Under the pieces are notes generated by a model. It made no database searches. It was given only the letters and a program-made list of their open reading frames with translations, and was not told where the DNA came from. The position numbers and the translations under genes were made by a program. This document shows, in pieces, positions 1 to 5,671 of a stretch of 64,000 nt of DNA (its first letter is position 1; the number at the start of each line of letters is the position of its first letter). The DNA comes from Saccharothrix violaceirubra (GTDB taxonomy: Bacteria > Actinomycetota > Actinomycetes > Mycobacteriales > Pseudonocardiaceae). The stretch is taken from contig NZ_JACHJS010000001.1 of NCBI RefSeq assembly GCF_014203755.1, positions 4,650,001-4,714,000 of the forward strand, given 5' to 3'.

Positions 1-2008
1 GTTCGTGCCGTACGTGGCGGAAGGCCGCCCGGCACCGCCCGCGCCCTACACCGCCGTGGCGACCAAGCTGCTGACCAACGTGCCGCAGCCGCCGGAGCCC
101 GCCGACGACGGTTTCCGGTACCCGATGTGGAGCCTGCGCCGGGTCGACGTGGACGGCGAGCCGCACTGGTGCTTCGCGGTGCAGGGCCGGGGCGGGGCGT
201 TCGGCCAGGCGGGTATGTGCCAGTTCCTGTTCGCGCCGGCCGCGTTCAACCCGGCGACGCTCTGGTACGGCGCGGTCCGACTGGTGCGCGCGGACGGCCG
301 CCTGGTGCACCCGGAGGCGGGCGAGCCGAGCGACACGTGGCTGCGGCCGGTGTCCGCCGAGCGCCTGTCGGGTGCACTGACCGCTTTGTTCGCGGGCGAC
401 TCCAAGGTGGTCGTCGACGGTGGCCCGGTGGACGTGGCCGCGACGATCGGCGCGCTGCTCTCGGTCGTGCCGCTTTCGGTGGTGGACGGGTACGTGTGGA
501 CGACGTGCCTGGTGCGCCGTCCGGTGCAGGACAGCCGGCCGCTGGTGACCGGGCGCTGGCCCGAGGAACTGCCCGGCGGCAACGCGGGCCTGCGGTCGTG
601 GCTGGACCGTGCGCCCGAGAAGCCGGGCACGCCGGTGGCGCACCCGAAGACGCCCGAGGTCGTGGCGTGGCTGACCGACCTGGGTGCGCGGGACCTGTCG
701 CTGCCCGAGGAGTACGCGGCCGCGCCGACTCTGGCGGACCTGGCCGAGCTGATCGCGACCAAGCAGCTCGACATCGACCCGGCGGACGTGCCGCACCTGC
801 TGGCCAAGGACGACCCGCGGCTGGCGATCGGCCGGGGCCGCGAGCTGGTGAGCCGGTGGGCGGCCGACGACCCGGCCGGGGCGATCACCCGGCTGGTCGG
901 TTCGCCGAAGTTGTCGCCGCAGCTCACCGAGATCCTGTTCGACAGCCTGCTGGACGCGCACGTGCACGCGGCGCCGGGCACGAACCCGGCGTTGTTCCCC
1001 CCGGCGGCCAAGGCCGTGGCGGGCTGGGAGGCGGTGTTGACCAGGCTGCTGCGCGACCGGTTCGAGGACCGGCCCCGAATGGTCGAGTTCGTGCGGGACT
1101 ACGTGATCGCCGAGGGCCGGCCGCTGCACGACGGCGACGCGCAACTCGCGCACGGCAGGTGGTTGACGGCGCTGGGCGTGTCACCGGACGACCCGGCGTC
1201 GGGCATCTACCCGGTGCCGACCGCGCGGATCGTCGCCGAGATCCGCGAGCGCCGCTCGCTGGGGTCCGTGGGTCGGGCGTTCCTCGCGGCGGCGGCCGAC
1301 CCGGTCGCGCAGGTGCGGGTCGTGCTCGACGGGCTGGACAGCGTGCCGCCGGTCGTGGCCGCGGAGTTCGTGGCGCTGTGCCCGGACGACCGGCAGGCGG
1401 GCGAGGTGCTGACGTACGCGCTCGACCGGGGCCAGGCCCGTGCCGGGGTGGCGTGGGCCGAGAAGTGGTTGCTGGAGGTGCACGACCGCGTCGAGGCCGG
1501 GCGGCGCGGGGTCGTGCTGGACACCGGTGTCGGACACTTCGGGCGGATCGACCACGAGCTGCCCGCGAGCCTGTTGGTCCTCGCCCTCCGGTCCGAGCTG
1601 GCCGGGCTGGGCGCGGCGGACGCGTTGCGGCGCAAGGTGTTGACCGATGCCGTGGCGAAGCTGGAGGCCGGTTCGCGACGCGGTCACGCCAAGGCCAAGG
1701 CGCCGGCGCCGCACCTGATCGTGCACCAGCCGGTCCAGCCGGCCGTGGCGCAACCCCCGGCGCGACCCCAAACACAGCCGCAGCAGCAGCCACGACCGAC
1801 GCCCTACCCGACCGAGCCGACCGAGTCGCTCGACACGCGGGCACCGTGGAACGTCGACGTCGAGGAAGCCGCGACGAAGCGCAAGCGGCGTCGGCTGCCC
1901 GACCTGTCCGCGCACTGGCCGCTGATCGGCAAAGTGCTGATCGCCGTGCTCGTGGTCGCGTTGATCGTGGCGCTCTACCTGCTCGCCCGACACATGTTGC
2001 AACGCTGA
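1..2008 (+). CDS. Membrane-anchored protein of unknown function (5' partial), first gene of a four-gene operon
   Basis: The reading frame enters from the left edge, so the true start lies outside; a GTG at 5 is the first start-like codon in view. About 640 residues of soluble sequence are followed by a Pro/Gln-rich linker (about residues 560-600 counted from position 5), a basic stretch and one C-terminal membrane helix (about 641-663), so the bulk is probably cytoplasmic with a C-terminal anchor. I do not recognise a catalytic motif. The general look (a long actinobacterial protein beside small membrane proteins) recalls the GTPase-associated protein 1 (GAP1) families, but this is only a suggestion from memory. 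The stop overlaps an ATG of the next frame (ATGA at 2005-2008 region), indicating co-translation with the downstream genes. Confidence 0.7.
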   Translation, partial: FVPYVAEGRPAPPAPYTAVATKLLTNVPQPPEPADDGFRYPMWSLRRVDVDGEPHWCFAVQGRGGAFGQAGMCQFLFAPAAFNPATLWYGAVRLVRADGRLVHPEAGEPSDTWLRPVSAERLSGALTALFAGDSKVVVDGGPVDVAATIGALLSVVPLSVVDGYVWTTCLVRRPVQDSRPLVTGRWPEELPGGNAGLRSWLDRAPEKPGTPVAHPKTPEVVAWLTDLGARDLSLPEEYAAAPTLADLAELIATKQLDIDPADVPHLLAKDDPRLAIGRGRELVSRWAADDPAGAITRLVGSPKLSPQLTEILFDSLLDAHVHAAPGTNPALFPPAAKAVAGWEAVLTRLLRDRFEDRPRMVEFVRDYVIAEGRPLHDGDAQLAHGRWLTALGVSPDDPASGIYPVPTARIVAEIRERRSLGSVGRAFLAAAADPVAQVRVVLDGLDSVPPVVAAEFVALCPDDRQAGEVLTYALDRGQARAGVAWAEKWLLEVHDRVEAGRRGVVLDTGVGHFGRIDHELPASLLVLALRSELAGLGAADALRRKVLTDAVAKLEAGSRRGHAKAKAPAPHLIVHQPVQPAVAQPPARPQTQPQQQPRPTPYPTEPTESLDTRAPWNVDVEEAATKRKRRRLPDLSAHWPLIGKVLIAVLVVALIVALYLLARHMLQR

Positions 2009-2037
2009 TGTCACCGAAGATCAAGCACGGAGACCCG

Positions 2038-3219
2038 ATGTTCCCGAACATGCCCGACCCGGACGAGGAGTCGGCGGCGGTCCGCGTCGACAAGCTGGTC
2101 ACGGCGGCGATGCGCCGCCTCGACCGGGTCACCGGCACGCACGCGGGCAACCGGCCGCCGCACCTGGCCCAGCTCGACGCCGTGCTCACCGCGGCGGTCC
2201 ACCAGGCCAAGCAGGCCGAGGCCGGGTCGTCGGCCGTCGACCGCGACTCGGACCTGTGGCGGCTGCGCGAACCCGGCTACCTGCGCGCGATCTGCGACCA
2301 CCCGGTGGACCGGCCCGGCGGCACGCTGCCGCTCGTGCCCGTGGTGCTCACGTGGGCGTTGCTGGGGTACGCGGAGTGGACGTACCTGGACGACTACGCG
2401 TCGGCGCCGGCCGCCGACCGGCCGTCGTTCTTCGCGGACTGGATGACGCAGCCGGTCTACCGCAGCCCGGTCGCGCTGTCGCTGGCGATCGTCGCCACGG
2501 TCGCCGTGATCATGTACAAGTACCGCGCCCCGGCACGGGCGCAGCGGGTGGCCGACGAGGTCGACCGGATCGTGCACCGGCTGGAGGTCGACCTGCTGCC
2601 GCCGCTGACCGTGCTGCGCGGCGCGCTCGGGCCGGTCAAGGTCGAGGAGCACACCCGGCAGGCGGCCGTGGAACTCGGCGCGGCGGCCAAGCTGTTCACC
2701 ACGGCCACCGCGCGGCTGGCCGAGTCGACCGCCGTGGTGGACCGGTTGGTCGCGGGCGTGGAGCGGTTGGTGACCGCGTTGCCCGAACTCGGCGCGCAGA
2801 CCGGCAAACTCGAAGAGGTGCGGCGCGACCTGGACCAGACCGCGCAGATGATCTCCACCGGCCTCGCCCCGCTCCAGGACCTGGTGTCCGATGTGGACGG
2901 AGCGGCCAAGGCCGCGAAGGAGGCCGTCGACCGGTCCGAGACCGTGCTGGGCCGGGCGGCCGGGCAGCTCGCCGACGCCGACGAGGTCGCGCAGCGGCAC
3001 GCCGGGCACCGCGCGGCGCTGACCGCCGCGCAGGCGCCGTTCACGGCCGTGGCCGACGTGGTCGACAAGGCGTCGAGCCGGTTGGACGCGACCTCCGCGC
3101 AACTCCAAGAGGCCGTGTCCGAGCTGCGCAAGACCGTGGCCGAGGTCAACTGGCTGGTCATGGTGTCCGACGGGCTGCGGCACGGCGAGGGCGAGCACAC
3201 CGACGGGCAGGCGGGCTGA
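2038..3219 (+). CDS. Two-helix membrane protein with long C-terminal coiled coil (ZorA-like architecture, unknown function)
   Basis: 393 residues. A soluble N-terminal segment (1-95) is followed by two membrane helices (about 97-116 and 143-163) and then some 220 residues of heptad-like helix rich in Ala, Leu, Glu and Arg, predicted as coiled coil. This layout resembles the stator-type proteins of ion-driven complexes (ZorA, TolQ/MotA relatives), although only two helices are obvious and sequence identity is not evident. The start was set at ATG 2038 because GGAG lies 5 nt upstream; an ATG at 2008 that overlaps the previous stop would add 10 residues. The stop overlaps the next start (TGATG at 3217-3221). 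Confidence 0.8.
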   Translation: MFPNMPDPDEESAAVRVDKLVTAAMRRLDRVTGTHAGNRPPHLAQLDAVLTAAVHQAKQAEAGSSAVDRDSDLWRLREPGYLRAICDHPVDRPGGTLPLVPVVLTWALLGYAEWTYLDDYASAPAADRPSFFADWMTQPVYRSPVALSLAIVATVAVIMYKYRAPARAQRVADEVDRIVHRLEVDLLPPLTVLRGALGPVKVEEHTRQAAVELGAAAKLFTTATARLAESTAVVDRLVAGVERLVTALPELGAQTGKLEEVRRDLDQTAQMISTGLAPLQDLVSDVDGAAKAAKEAVDRSETVLGRAAGQLADADEVAQRHAGHRAALTAAQAPFTAVADVVDKASSRLDATSAQLQEAVSELRKTVAEVNWLVMVSDGLRHGEGEHTDGQAG

Positions 3220-3725
3220 TGCGCCGTCGTCGGGGCCGGCCGGACACGTCCGCCGGGCTGTCCACGGCCGGGTGGCTGTTCGCGGAACTGGCGTTGCTGC
3301 TCCTGGTCGTCGCGGTCGGCTCCGAGGTGCCGCCGGTGCGCAACGCGATGTCGGAACCGGCCGTCACGAGCACGCCGACGACGACGCAGACCGCGCCGCC
3401 GACCCGGGGCCTGTCGCTGACCACCGAGCGGTTCGTCATGCCCGCCGTGCCCGACGACCAGGTCGTGGCCCGGTTCACCGAGCTGATGACCGCCCGGATC
3501 GGGCCGGACGCCCAGGTGGGGCTCGTGCTGCTGTTCGGCGTGTCCACCACGGGCGTGCTCGGCGACGGCGAGCAGGTGTCCAAGCGGCTCAAGGGTTTCG
3601 TCGAACCCGCCGGGCTCCCCCAGCTGCGGACCAGCACCGACATCCGCCCCTACATCGGCAGCCGCAACGACGCCGGCCCCGGCGAGGTGGTCGTCGAGCT
3701 GTTCCTGATGAACGGGCCGTCGTGA
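3219..3725 (+). CDS. Small single-helix protein with MotB/ZorB-like membrane segment and OmpA-like tail
   Basis: 168 residues. A basic N-terminus is followed by one membrane helix (about 18-36) that carries an acidic residue, Glu23, in the context WLFAELALLLLVV. This closely mimics the W-x-x-A-D-L-hydrophobic pattern of the ion-conducting helix of MotB and ZorB. After a Thr/Pro linker comes an extracytoplasmic domain of about 110 residues with a beta-alpha-beta pattern (VGLVLLFG, then a helix, then GEVVVELFLMN) that could be a degenerate OmpA/peptidoglycan-binding fold. It overlaps the coiled-coil gene upstream by 1 nt and the next gene by 4 nt, so the four proteins are likely made together. 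The motor/stator role is inference. Confidence 0.75.
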   Translation: MRRRRGRPDTSAGLSTAGWLFAELALLLLVVAVGSEVPPVRNAMSEPAVTSTPTTTQTAPPTRGLSLTTERFVMPAVPDDQVVARFTELMTARIGPDAQVGLVLLFGVSTTGVLGDGEQVSKRLKGFVEPAGLPQLRTSTDIRPYIGSRNDAGPGEVVVELFLMNGPS

Positions 3726-4420
3726 TCGGTTTCCTGCGGCGTTTCCGGCGCGCACCCGTCGTGGTGGAGCACGACCCCGTGGTGCACCACGGGGTCGTGG
3801 TCGCGGACGGCACCGGACATGGTGTCGGCGACGCGTTGTGCTCGGCGTTGGCCGTGCACGGGATCGCCGCGTACGCGATCGACCCGTTCGAGGTGGACGC
3901 GGGCGCGGACGTGGTCGTGCTGCTGCTGCCGGTGCGGCCGGACACGATGCCGATGCCCGGTGGCACGGCCCTGTCGGTGCTGGGTCGGGTCGGCGCCGAC
4001 CCGGTCGCCGCCGCCGCGTTCCGCAGCCGGCTGGTCGTCGTCTGGTACCTGCGCAACGCCGCGCGCCCCCGGCTGTCGGCGCCCGGTGTCGGCCGGACCG
4101 GGCGGGTGTGGAACGGCAGCGAGCTGCTGCTGGCCACGTCGTGGCGCCGGGAACTGGCCCACCACGGCGGGGACCTGGCGGCGGCCGTGCGCTGCCGCAG
4201 CGGCCGGGTCGACCGGATGGTGCACGCGCCGACGCACCACCGGCTGGGCGCGAACCTGGTCCCGGACGTGTGCCGTGACCTGCGCGTCCTGGACCCGGAC
4301 CTGGTGCACGGCCTGTGCGTGGAGGTCGCCGACCACCGCGTGGACGACACGGTGCTGCGCTGGACCGGCGCCCGGTCGGTCGCGGCGGCCGTGCGGGTCA
4401 GCGCCGCAGCAGCTCGATGA
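3722..4420 (+). CDS. Hypothetical cytoplasmic protein, last gene of the four-gene operon
   Basis: 232 residues from a GTG that overlaps the preceding stop (GTGA). No signal peptide or membrane helix. The N-terminal half alternates strands and helices with a glycine-rich turn after the first strand (VVVADGTGHGVGDAL) and a second buried strand (ADVVVLLLPV), suggesting a Rossmann-like nucleotide or ligand-binding fold. The C-terminal half is Arg/His-rich. I do not recognise the family. Position at the end of the coupled operon suggests a cytoplasmic partner of the membrane proteins. Its 3' end overlaps the convergent dehydrogenase gene by 23 bp. Confidence 0.7.
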   Translation: MIGFLRRFRRAPVVVEHDPVVHHGVVVADGTGHGVGDALCSALAVHGIAAYAIDPFEVDAGADVVVLLLPVRPDTMPMPGGTALSVLGRVGADPVAAAAFRSRLVVVWYLRNAARPRLSAPGVGRTGRVWNGSELLLATSWRRELAHHGGDLAAAVRCRSGRVDRMVHAPTHHRLGANLVPDVCRDLRVLDPDLVHGLCVEVADHRVDDTVLRWTGARSVAAAVRVSAAAAR

Positions 4421-5258
4421 GCCGCGCGCCGTCCTCCGCGCCCTGGCCCTCGGCCACGCCCCGGGCCGACAGGTCGAGGTAGGGCGTGATCAGGTCCGGG
4501 CGCACGCCCTGGTCCACGGCGGTGTCGACCATGGTCCGGTTGGCCGTGACCTGCATGGCCAGGTTCGACGTGACGTCCGAGGTGTAGTCGCCGGTCACGA
4601 TGCGCTGCGCCATGCGCTGCGTGAACGGCAGGCACGCGGCGAGCCAGTCCACGAGCAGCGTGGCGAACTCGCCGGTGTCGATGTCCTTTTCGCCGTGCAC
4701 CAACGCGAACGCGTGCGTGACGCCCGCGAACAGGCCGGTCATCCCACCGAGCAGCGCCACGTCGTGCAGCGCCGCGTGGCCCGGGTCGTCGCCGACCCAC
4801 TTCGCACCGGCCGGGACGGCGAGGGTCCGCTCGTGCTCGGCGAACAGGTCGACCGACCCGCTGTAGAACACGTACGCGCCCGAGTCGGGGACGCCGATCA
4901 TCGGCGGGACGGCCATGATGCCGCCGTCGACGTACCGGGCGCCCCGGCCGGCCGCCCACTCGGCGCGGTCCCGGGCCTGCGCGGGCGTGCCCGTGGTGAG
5001 GTCGACCAGGTCGCGGCCGGCGAGGTCGGTACCGTCGAGGACGTCGACGACCGAGGCGTGGTCGAGCAGGCAGGTGACGACGAGCCGGTTGGCGGCGACC
5101 GCCTCGGCCGGTGTCGCGGCGACGGTCGCGCCCTCGGCGGCGAGGCGTTCGGCCCGGGCGGGCGTGCGGTTCCAGACGGTGACGTGGTGGCCGGCGGCGA
5201 GCCAGGCCCGGGTCAGGGCCGTGCCCATCGCGCCGAGCCCCAGAACGGTGAGGGTCAT
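4398..5258 (-). CDS. NADP-dependent 6-phosphogluconate/beta-hydroxyacid-dehydrogenase family oxidoreductase (imine reductase-like)
   Basis: 286 residues. The N-terminal Rossmann fold has the GLGAMG dinucleotide loop (about 7-12) and NRT after the second strand, typical of NADP preference. The middle has the conserved DGGIMAVPP segment and the C-terminal half is the all-helical dimerisation domain of the family. Length and motifs fit the group that contains imine reductases and 3-hydroxyisobutyrate-type dehydrogenases; the substrate cannot be told from sequence. It is divergent from an HxlR regulator 77 bp away, and that interval carries two inverted repeats, so the regulator probably controls it. 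Start ATG at 5258. Confidence 0.88.
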   Translation of the reverse strand: MTLTVLGLGAMGTALTRAWLAAGHHVTVWNRTPARAERLAAEGATVAATPAEAVAANRLVVTCLLDHASVVDVLDGTDLAGRDLVDLTTGTPAQARDRAEWAAGRGARYVDGGIMAVPPMIGVPDSGAYVFYSGSVDLFAEHERTLAVPAGAKWVGDDPGHAALHDVALLGGMTGLFAGVTHAFALVHGEKDIDTGEFATLLVDWLAACLPFTQRMAQRIVTGDYTSDVTSNLAMQVTANRTMVDTAVDQGVRPDLITPYLDLSARGVAEGQGAEDGARLIELLRR

Positions 5259-5282
5259 GCGTCCCAGGCTGGGACCGGGGCT

Positions 5283-5314
5283 CTTGATGATCAAGTACGC
5301 ACTCGGAAGTGCGT
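5283..5314. promoter_or_regulatory. Probable HxlR operator pair between divergent genes
   Basis: Two dyads lie in the 77-bp divergent spacer. The first is CTTGAT-G-ATCAAG (5283-5295) and the second is ACGCACT-CGGA-AGTGCGT (5297-5314), both perfect. HxlR-type regulators usually bind such sites in the spacer next to their own gene. Assignment is by position and symmetry only. Confidence 0.6.
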
Positions 5315-5335
5315 GGTTACCGGGAGGAAAGCGAC

Positions 5336-5671
5336 ATGCGCAGGCCAGGGGCGTACCACTGCGGGCTGGACGCGGCGGTCGAGGTGATCGGCGGCAAGTG
5401 GAAGGTGCTGATCCTCTGGGCGCTGGGCGAGCGCCCGCACCGGTTCGGGGAGCTGCGCCGCGAACTGGCGGGCGTGACGGAGAAGGTGCTCGCGTCGCAC
5501 CTGCGCGAACTGGAGGACGACGGCATCGTGCACCGCGAGGTGTTCGACGAGGTGCCGCCGCGCGTGGAGTACTCGCTGACCGGGTCGGGCGAGGCACTCG
5601 TACGCGCCTTGGAACCGCTCGGCGAGTGGGGCCGCGCCCACGTCCCCGGTGTCCCGGTCGAACGGATCTAG
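5336..5671 (+). CDS. HxlR-family winged-helix transcriptional regulator
   Basis: 111 residues. It has the family hallmark near the N-terminus (Cys at YHCG, then VIGGKWKVLILWAL) followed by the winged helix (RFGELRREL, VTEKVLASHLRELEDDGIV) and the YSLT segment. The conserved N-terminal Cys is in the position used for redox or electrophile sensing in HypR/YodB relatives. The start at ATG 5336 is set by an ideal GGGAGGAAAG ribosome-binding site; an upstream in-frame ATG lacks one. It is divergent from the oxidoreductase and convergent, 1 nt apart, with the DUF4291 gene. Confidence 0.92.
   Translation: MRRPGAYHCGLDAAVEVIGGKWKVLILWALGERPHRFGELRRELAGVTEKVLASHLRELEDDGIVHREVFDEVPPRVEYSLTGSGEALVRALEPLGEWGRAHVPGVPVERI

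Follow-up and report, generated by a model that had tools for sequence, protein, structure and literature searches.

An eight-gene operon in Saccharothrix violaceirubra combines a fused wall synthase, a divergent DO-GTPase and a coiled-coil/MotB-like membrane pair: a candidate accessory envelope complex

We analyzed a 64,000-nucleotide stretch of the Saccharothrix violaceirubra genome (G000:C1:4650001-4714000; the window), which comes from a single contig of 7.35 Mb. A preliminary description had placed four overlapping genes at its start and proposed that they encode a new membrane complex. Adding the 10 kb upstream of the window (locus L009; window position = L009 position - 10000) supplied the missing 5' sequence: gene 1 begins 47 nt before the window start, and eight tightly coupled genes lie on the same strand (+), with the four first described at their 3' end. 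The operon starts ~7.7 kb upstream of the window, which adds genes A to D:

A, L009 2338-5850, + strand: 1170 residues, fused RodA-PbpA-type peptidoglycan synthase
B, L009 5847-7913, + strand: 688 residues, kinase-like, anchored by a transmembrane (TM) segment
C, L009 7910-8194, + strand: 94 residues, small one-TM protein
D, L009 8221-9957, + strand: 578 residues, zinc-ribbon GTPase
E (gene 1), L009 9954-12008 = window -46 to 2008, + strand: 684 residues, probably GAP1-like, C-terminal TM segment
F (gene 2), window 2008-3219, L009 12008-13219, + strand: 403 residues, two TM segments and a coiled coil
G (gene 3), window 3219-3725, L009 13219-13725, + strand: 168 residues, MotB/ZorB-like
H (gene 4), window 3722-4420, L009 13722-14420, + strand: 232 residues, predicted alpha/beta (Rossmannoid) protein

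Six of the seven gene junctions are overlaps of 1 or 4 nt (4 nt at D-E; 1, 1 and 4 nt at E-F, F-G and G-H), and the C-D junction is a 26-nt gap. The row of four overlapping plus-strand genes had been read correctly. Taking them as the whole unit was mistaken: the core of the operon, made up of wall synthase, kinase-like protein and GTPase, sits upstream of them.

A carries an FtsW/RodA-type polymerase domain (PF01098, E-value 1.1e-19) and a transpeptidase domain (PF00905, E-value 5.3e-35) in a single chain. The transpeptidase motifs STFK, SCN and KTG are intact in 12/12 A proteins, and the SEDS-domain Asp, which we take to be the catalytic residue, is kept in all 11 rows with sequence at that site. 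The features tested for a SEDS-bPBP synthase (the SEDS fold with its Asp, and SxxK, SxN and KTG) are thus all found in A. In the host genome, A matches five places besides itself. Its best transpeptidase match (E-value 2.5e-17) and its sole polymerase match (E-value 1.4e-10) adjoin in a cluster that reads, by eye, FHA-FHA-PP2C-RodA-PbpA-kinase-kinase (G000:C1:7060942-7070367).

B matches Pkinase in nine of ten members (best E-value 4e-6), with the window's B under the Pfam cut-off. It may be an active kinase, because K311, D449, N454 and D471, presumably the catalytic residues, are invariant in 10/10. An FHA-like domain at the N-terminus of B was considered and not supported, having no Pfam match and no convincing BLAST match to the host genes read by eye as FHA.

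D is a TRAFAC-type GTPase with an N-terminal CxxC...CGxGH zinc ribbon. The GK, DxxGE (Walker-B-side glutamate) and KxD motifs occur in 33/33 members, CxxC in 31/33 and C..H in 33/33, so that D has the TRAFAC GTPase domain, Walker-B glutamate and zinc ribbon looked for in DO-GTPase/GAP1-N2 systems. The D profile matches canonical DO-GTPase profiles at E-values of 3.6e-8 (228 columns) and 2.9e-5 (119 columns). For comparison, nine pairings of E, B and F with DO-GTPase/GAP1 profiles gave E-values from 0.017 (E with GAP1) to 0.77, and D with GAP1 gave 0.37. By profile comparison, we class D as a divergent DO-GTPase.

E follows D with its 4-nt overlap, in the position that GAP1 takes in DO-GTPase systems, where the GAP1 gene follows the GTPase gene (Kaur et al., 2020; PMC7159879, in the part cited here). 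The same part of that paper has GAP1-N2 proteins frequently carrying a C-terminal TM segment; that of E lies at residues 660-678 (window ~1931-1987) and is the membrane anchor first described for gene 1. The E profile, built from the 12 operon E proteins and nine more (hhalign kept 20/21), is colinear with GAP1-N2 to GAP1-M at a score of 35.3 (pairwise E-value 0.005, hhalign probability 7%), against 22.2 for the best of 30 column shuffles and 25.4 for the reversed profile. By position and probable distant homology we call E GAP1-like, although its link to GAP1 in sequence is weak. A canonical GAP1-N2 locus (L041, G000:C1:5939547-5939948; E-value 7e-34) lies elsewhere in the source genome.

F and G, the coiled-coil protein and the one-helix protein of the preliminary description, have the following features:

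F TM segments, window ~2326-2388 and ~2461-2520, + strand: from hydropathy and alignment
F putative cytoplasmic coiled coil, window ~2530-3147, + strand: from heptad periodicity
F tip motif NWLxMVxDGLR (residues 381-391), window 3148..3180, + strand: end of the coil
G TM segment (residues 13-34), window 3255-3320, + strand
Glu23 of G, window 3285..3287, + strand: lone acid in the TM helix, acidic in 56/56
G outer domain (residues 64-165), window 3408-3713, + strand: predicted beta-alpha-beta-alpha-beta-beta

F consists of a short N-terminal domain, two TM segments, ~200 residues of heptad-periodic helix and an invariant tip; the two helices and the coiled coil agree with the earlier account of gene 2. 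In a hydropathy scan of three F orthologues, those of L018 and L020 passed for both TM segments; the window's F passed for the second alone, and its first was recognized through alignment. The heptad (3.5-residue) periodicity has z of 6.7 to 11.3 versus residue shuffles in 8/8 F proteins tested (eight of the nine complete ones; L019 was left out). Residues P111, T115, W116, S158 and T164 are invariant in 9/9 orthologues, as are N381, W382, D388, G389, L390 and R391 of the tip, which we propose as a docking site.

G has a short basic N-terminus, a single TM helix, a Pro/Thr linker and an outer domain. The helix, GWLFAELALLLLVVAVG, had been read correctly, with Glu23 at the place of the MotB/ZorB Asp. 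This in-membrane acid is kept in 56/56 aligned relatives (53 Glu, 3 Asp). The RRRR before the helix of G and the basic residues after the second TM segment of F suggest, by their charge, that the coil of F is inside and the domain of G outside. In Zorya, Ser/Thr residues of ZorA form a ring in contact with the Asp of ZorB (PMC11890865, in the part cited here), and by analogy the invariant Thr and Ser of F are candidates for facing the acid of G. H, described earlier as Rossmann-like, is indeed a predicted alpha/beta protein and has no nucleotide motif recognizable by eye.

The proposal of a membrane complex modeled on MotA/MotB or ZorA/ZorB survives in part. G has a MotB/ZorB-like architecture, with a conserved TM acid and a predicted OmpA-like outer domain (a moderate match), and had no OmpA match in Pfam at E-value <=10 in any of nine members. 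F is not detectably a MotA- or ZorA-like partner: it has two TM segments and, in Pfam, PADLOC and PDB searches, no MotA, TolQ, ExbB or ZorA match outside its coil. PADLOC matches of F to ZorA are confined to the coiled coil, and the 26 PDB chains matched by sequence, by name mostly coiled coils and helical bundles, include no ZorA or MotA. PDB sequence searches found no relative for D, E or G.

Scanning GTDB genome contigs with the D alignment gave eight loci, in Saccharothrix, Lentzea and Actinokineospora. All eight genes occur in identical order in nine loci (L009, L013-L016, L018-L020 and L032), and the order of the four genes first described is thereby conserved. This count includes the window's own locus and L032, from a genome of the same genus, and leaves out L017, a short contig that begins within A and ends within F. 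D was found (E-value <=1e-5) in 7 of 397 genomes of the host's order. Six of these, the source genome included, hold the eight-gene system. In the seventh, G309 (E-value 3e-6), the match belongs to a canonical DO-GTPase/GAP1 locus that also has HSP70-like genes; G309 gave no match to P0093. Among 394 genomes drawn from the order, fused A (E-value <=1e-40) is present in six, the same six that hold the eight-gene system. D is present in 3/100 genomes of the host's family (own included) and, among 396 genomes of the phylum, in the source genome only; one of the five other genus genomes listed in the order-wide D search has the operon. The flanks of 11 operon loci (4 kb per side, tblastx E-value <=1e-15) are dissimilar for most locus pairs, with strong matches only between L030 and L031 (same genus) and, on one side, between L014 and L015. 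As far as these searches tell, the operon is rare, patchy and inherited together, because few genomes hold D or A, the same six hold both, and the flanks differ.

Two genomes of another family carry a version without F, G and H:

A-E version, L030:5718-16887
A-E version, L031:3025-14097

Here A-B-D-E is kept and F, G and H do not adjoin. Two genes make up B, the place of C is taken by a small gene (102 and 105 residues) with no BLAST link to C, and E continues past its TM segment with an additional stretch that looks beta-rich. These loci show that the A-E core can dispense with F-G-H, and perhaps this outer stretch of E takes over sensing there.

The F-G pair also recurs outside the operon. 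Searched with a wider G profile (E-value <=0.001), 11 of 150 family genomes gave G relatives: four with the operon, three with strong matches outside it (E-values 3e-33 to 1e-19) and four with weak matches. The loci of the strong matches outside the operon are:

L056:7834-13397: F-G-like pair, then vWA (PF00092, E-value 3e-7), PP2C (PF13672, E-value 5e-35) and kinase (PF00069, E-value 1e-19)
L057:8682-10398: F-G-like pair between large proteins (929 and 1661 residues) and HSP70-like genes (by eye)
L058:9909-14863, - strand: kinase-like TM protein, DO-GTPase2, 545-residue protein, F and G, with no wall synthase

In all three an F-like gene lies directly upstream of G, as it does at every clear G locus read (the nine complete operons and these three). 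Two of the three genomes (G022, G206) gave no match in the D searches, and G847 lay outside those searches. The first TM segment of F carries PxxxTW and G carries Asp at all three loci. By eye, each of the three distant F proteins retains the Pro and Thr of this segment, and the Ser/Thr of the second TM segment is not clearly kept. BLAST connects only the L057 protein to F (E-value 7e-6). Jointly aligned, the three match the F profile over the two-TM region at an E-value of 1e-5, versus 0.48 for B as a control.

The operon at L058 shares with that of the window the order of its genes, a kinase-like gene, a DO-GTPase, F and G; E is not shared. Its kinase-like protein reaches Pkinase at an E-value of 0.18 only. 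Its DO-GTPase2 lies above the Pfam cut-off (39.8 bits, E-value 5e-10) and matches canonical DO-GTPases at 4e-14 and 6e-12 and the D profile weakly (0.0019). The 545-residue protein was tried as an E or GAP1 relative and rejected (profile E-values 0.47 for the E family and 0.12 for GAP1). The F-G pairs look like a portable module, because they also stand beside a vWA-PP2C-kinase triad and within a kinase-DO-GTPase2 operon (one locus each). At the level of sequence, these distant loci are the best evidence for the pairing of F with G and for a recurring kinase-GTPase-X-F-G order. The weak G matches (G707, G602, G478 and G001) were rejected as F-G loci, with no F- or G-like gene by eye, and G008 and G856 were rejected as operon relatives, with no BLAST match to operon proteins.

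The nearest described relatives of the operon are DO-GTPase/GAP1 systems, not Zorya. It shares with DO-GTPase/GAP1-N2 systems a zinc-ribbon GTPase with DxxGE (33/33), a large protein with a C-terminal TM segment encoded next, in GAP1's place, a kinase-like TM protein, an actinobacterial host and a membrane-rich composition; it differs by adding the fused wall synthase and F-G-H. Pfam gave no FNIII, tubulin, HSP70, PP2C or vWA match in the eight operon proteins. The main text of PMC7159879 never mentions FtsW, penicillin, transpeptidase or Zorya, and the nearest arrangement in the part cited is a third actinobacterial theme of active kinase, PP2C and vWA. Judged by sequence comparison, the operon either belongs to the DO-GTPase/GAP1-N2 systems as a divergent branch or is their sister, with no FNIII protein found and with GAP1 domains that are putative; relative to those systems, the fused wall synthase and the stator-like pair are new parts. 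The operon, a RodA-PbpA fusion with a GTPase and the F-G pair are undescribed among the titles and abstracts listed, in a search that had most subscription journals and bioRxiv outside it.

With the ZorA/ZorB of Zorya, the operon shares a membrane protein with a coiled tail, cytoplasmic as judged by charge, and a second protein whose one TM helix bears an acid and whose outer domain is predicted to be OmpA-like. It differs in that a ZorA core is not detectable in F, which has two TM segments, Glu replaces Asp in the operon's branch, and wall synthase, kinase and GTPase are present. Among B to H, the seven proteins scanned, PADLOC found no match to ZorC, ZorD or ZorE. The operon may work like Zorya; on the tested features it is not a Zorya system. 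The host RodA-PbpA-kinase locus holds the best host match for both halves of A and, like the operon with its kinase-like B, pairs them with kinases. In the operon, by contrast, the synthase is fused, the kinase domain of B is highly divergent (E-value 0.002 to the closest kinase of that locus), and GTPase, E, F, G and H are extra.

We favor, with a probability of about 0.4, the view that the operon encodes an accessory envelope complex whose dedicated synthase is controlled by a GTPase/kinase switch together with a wall-anchored, ZorAB-like F-G pair. F and G would form a ZorAB/MotAB-like transducer. The outer domain of G would grip or feel the wall, the Glu/Asp of its helix would be set against the conserved Thr/Ser of F, and the cytoplasmic coil of F would relay the signal to the invariant tip. 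The tip would engage E, D or H, with D and E as a nucleotide switch and B as a kinase. Through the switch, synthase A would build wall at the site of the complex or of the envelope disturbance. The likely role would be to repair or strengthen the wall locally when the envelope is attacked or stressed.

Several results limit this reading. D is divergent: Pfam places it only below threshold in DO-GTPase2 (PF19993; 11/33 members, best E-value 0.0034), and a single canonical DO-GTPase sequence matches it at 0.043. Among 12 E proteins, Pfam found GAP1-M in two (best E-value 0.0043) and neither GAP1-N2 nor GAP1-C in any, and a single canonical GAP1 sequence found no match to E. The FNIII domain looked for was not found, the eight operon proteins having no fn3 match at E-value <=1 (in Pfam, whose filters drop most matches above 0.1). 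Pfam found no MotA_ExbB in the eight proteins, and F has two TM segments. The predicted fold of the outer domain of G lines up with the OmpA and MotB periplasmic domains at moderate scores.

A bolder form of the same idea seems improbable to us: an ion-motive-force-coupled wall synthase, in which F-G is a peptidoglycan-anchored, stator-like pair that senses wall damage mechanically or ionically and mechanically gates A via the GTPase/kinase switch, and belongs to a two-TM MotAB-like class recruited by unrelated backbones (DO-GTPase, vWA-PP2C-kinase).

The alternative that survives best is a passive scaffold, in which G anchors to the wall, F positions the synthase as a membrane ruler or coil, and the TM acid contacts C, B, E or F with no ion flow. 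This is possible, if on the doubtful side. The two TM segments of F and the lack of a MotA signature fit it, as do B, C and E, each with a single C-terminal TM segment that could pair with the acid of G, and the second-TM Ser/Thr, whose retention by the three distant F proteins is, by eye, not clear. However, the acid is swapped only for Asp (56/56 acidic), and the first-TM Pro and Thr are kept in those same proteins (by eye); both fit a functional polar site.

We consider it unlikely that the operon is a Zorya-like anti-phage system, in which F-G senses that an injecting phage has breached the wall, the coil of F rotates or tilts as ions flow, the cytoplasmic proteins D, E, H and B act as effectors, and A reseals the wall. 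The architecture of G is MotB/ZorB-like, the distribution is patchy with dissimilar flanks for most locus pairs, and an F-G-like pair adjoins a vWA-PP2C-kinase triad (L056). The CoCoNuT paper names such a triad TerY-P and, in the part cited here, refers to a related module as antiphage; DO-GTPase systems have likewise been proposed as conflict systems, from comparative genomics (PMC7159879, in the part cited). Other results speak against the defense function with cytoplasmic effectors suggested in the preliminary description: PADLOC detected no nuclease, helicase or Zorya effector in B to H (A was not scanned), its matches are confined to the coil of F and the kinase motif of B, and Zorya as described in the cited part of PMC11890865 is without a wall synthase. 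Least likely is that the operon, having arisen from the RodA-PbpA-kinase growth locus, serves morphogenesis in a particular lineage (hyphal fragmentation, sporulation or branching) and has no part in defense or stress: the halves of A do best match the adjoining host RodA and PbpA of the FHA-FHA-PP2C-RodA-PbpA-kinase-kinase cluster (by eye), but only 6 of 394-397 order genomes and 3/100 family genomes have the operon, it is absent from four of the five other genus genomes listed, and the flanks differ in most loci.

If the accessory envelope complex is real, it joins elements known apart: stator-like wall-anchored pairs (Mot/Tol/Zor), the proposed GTPase-GAP1 conflict switches and a core SEDS-bPBP synthase. 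It would make the wall synthase a testable candidate for the target of a DO-GTPase system, F-G a portable two-gene module testable in other operons, and F a two-TM partner added to the range of stator-like pairs.

Downstream of the operon, a convergent NAD(P)-binding, 6-phosphogluconate-dehydrogenase-like gene (window 4398-5671, by eye) overlaps the 3' end of H, with a divergent HxlR-like regulator (by eye) beside it. A clean empty site was not found when the downstream flank was sought in ten genus genomes (own included) and four regions were read. In these regions the 6-phosphogluconate-dehydrogenase-like/HxlR pair lies in another setting, and the upstream protease is unmatched beside it. 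The pair also occurs elsewhere in related genomes.

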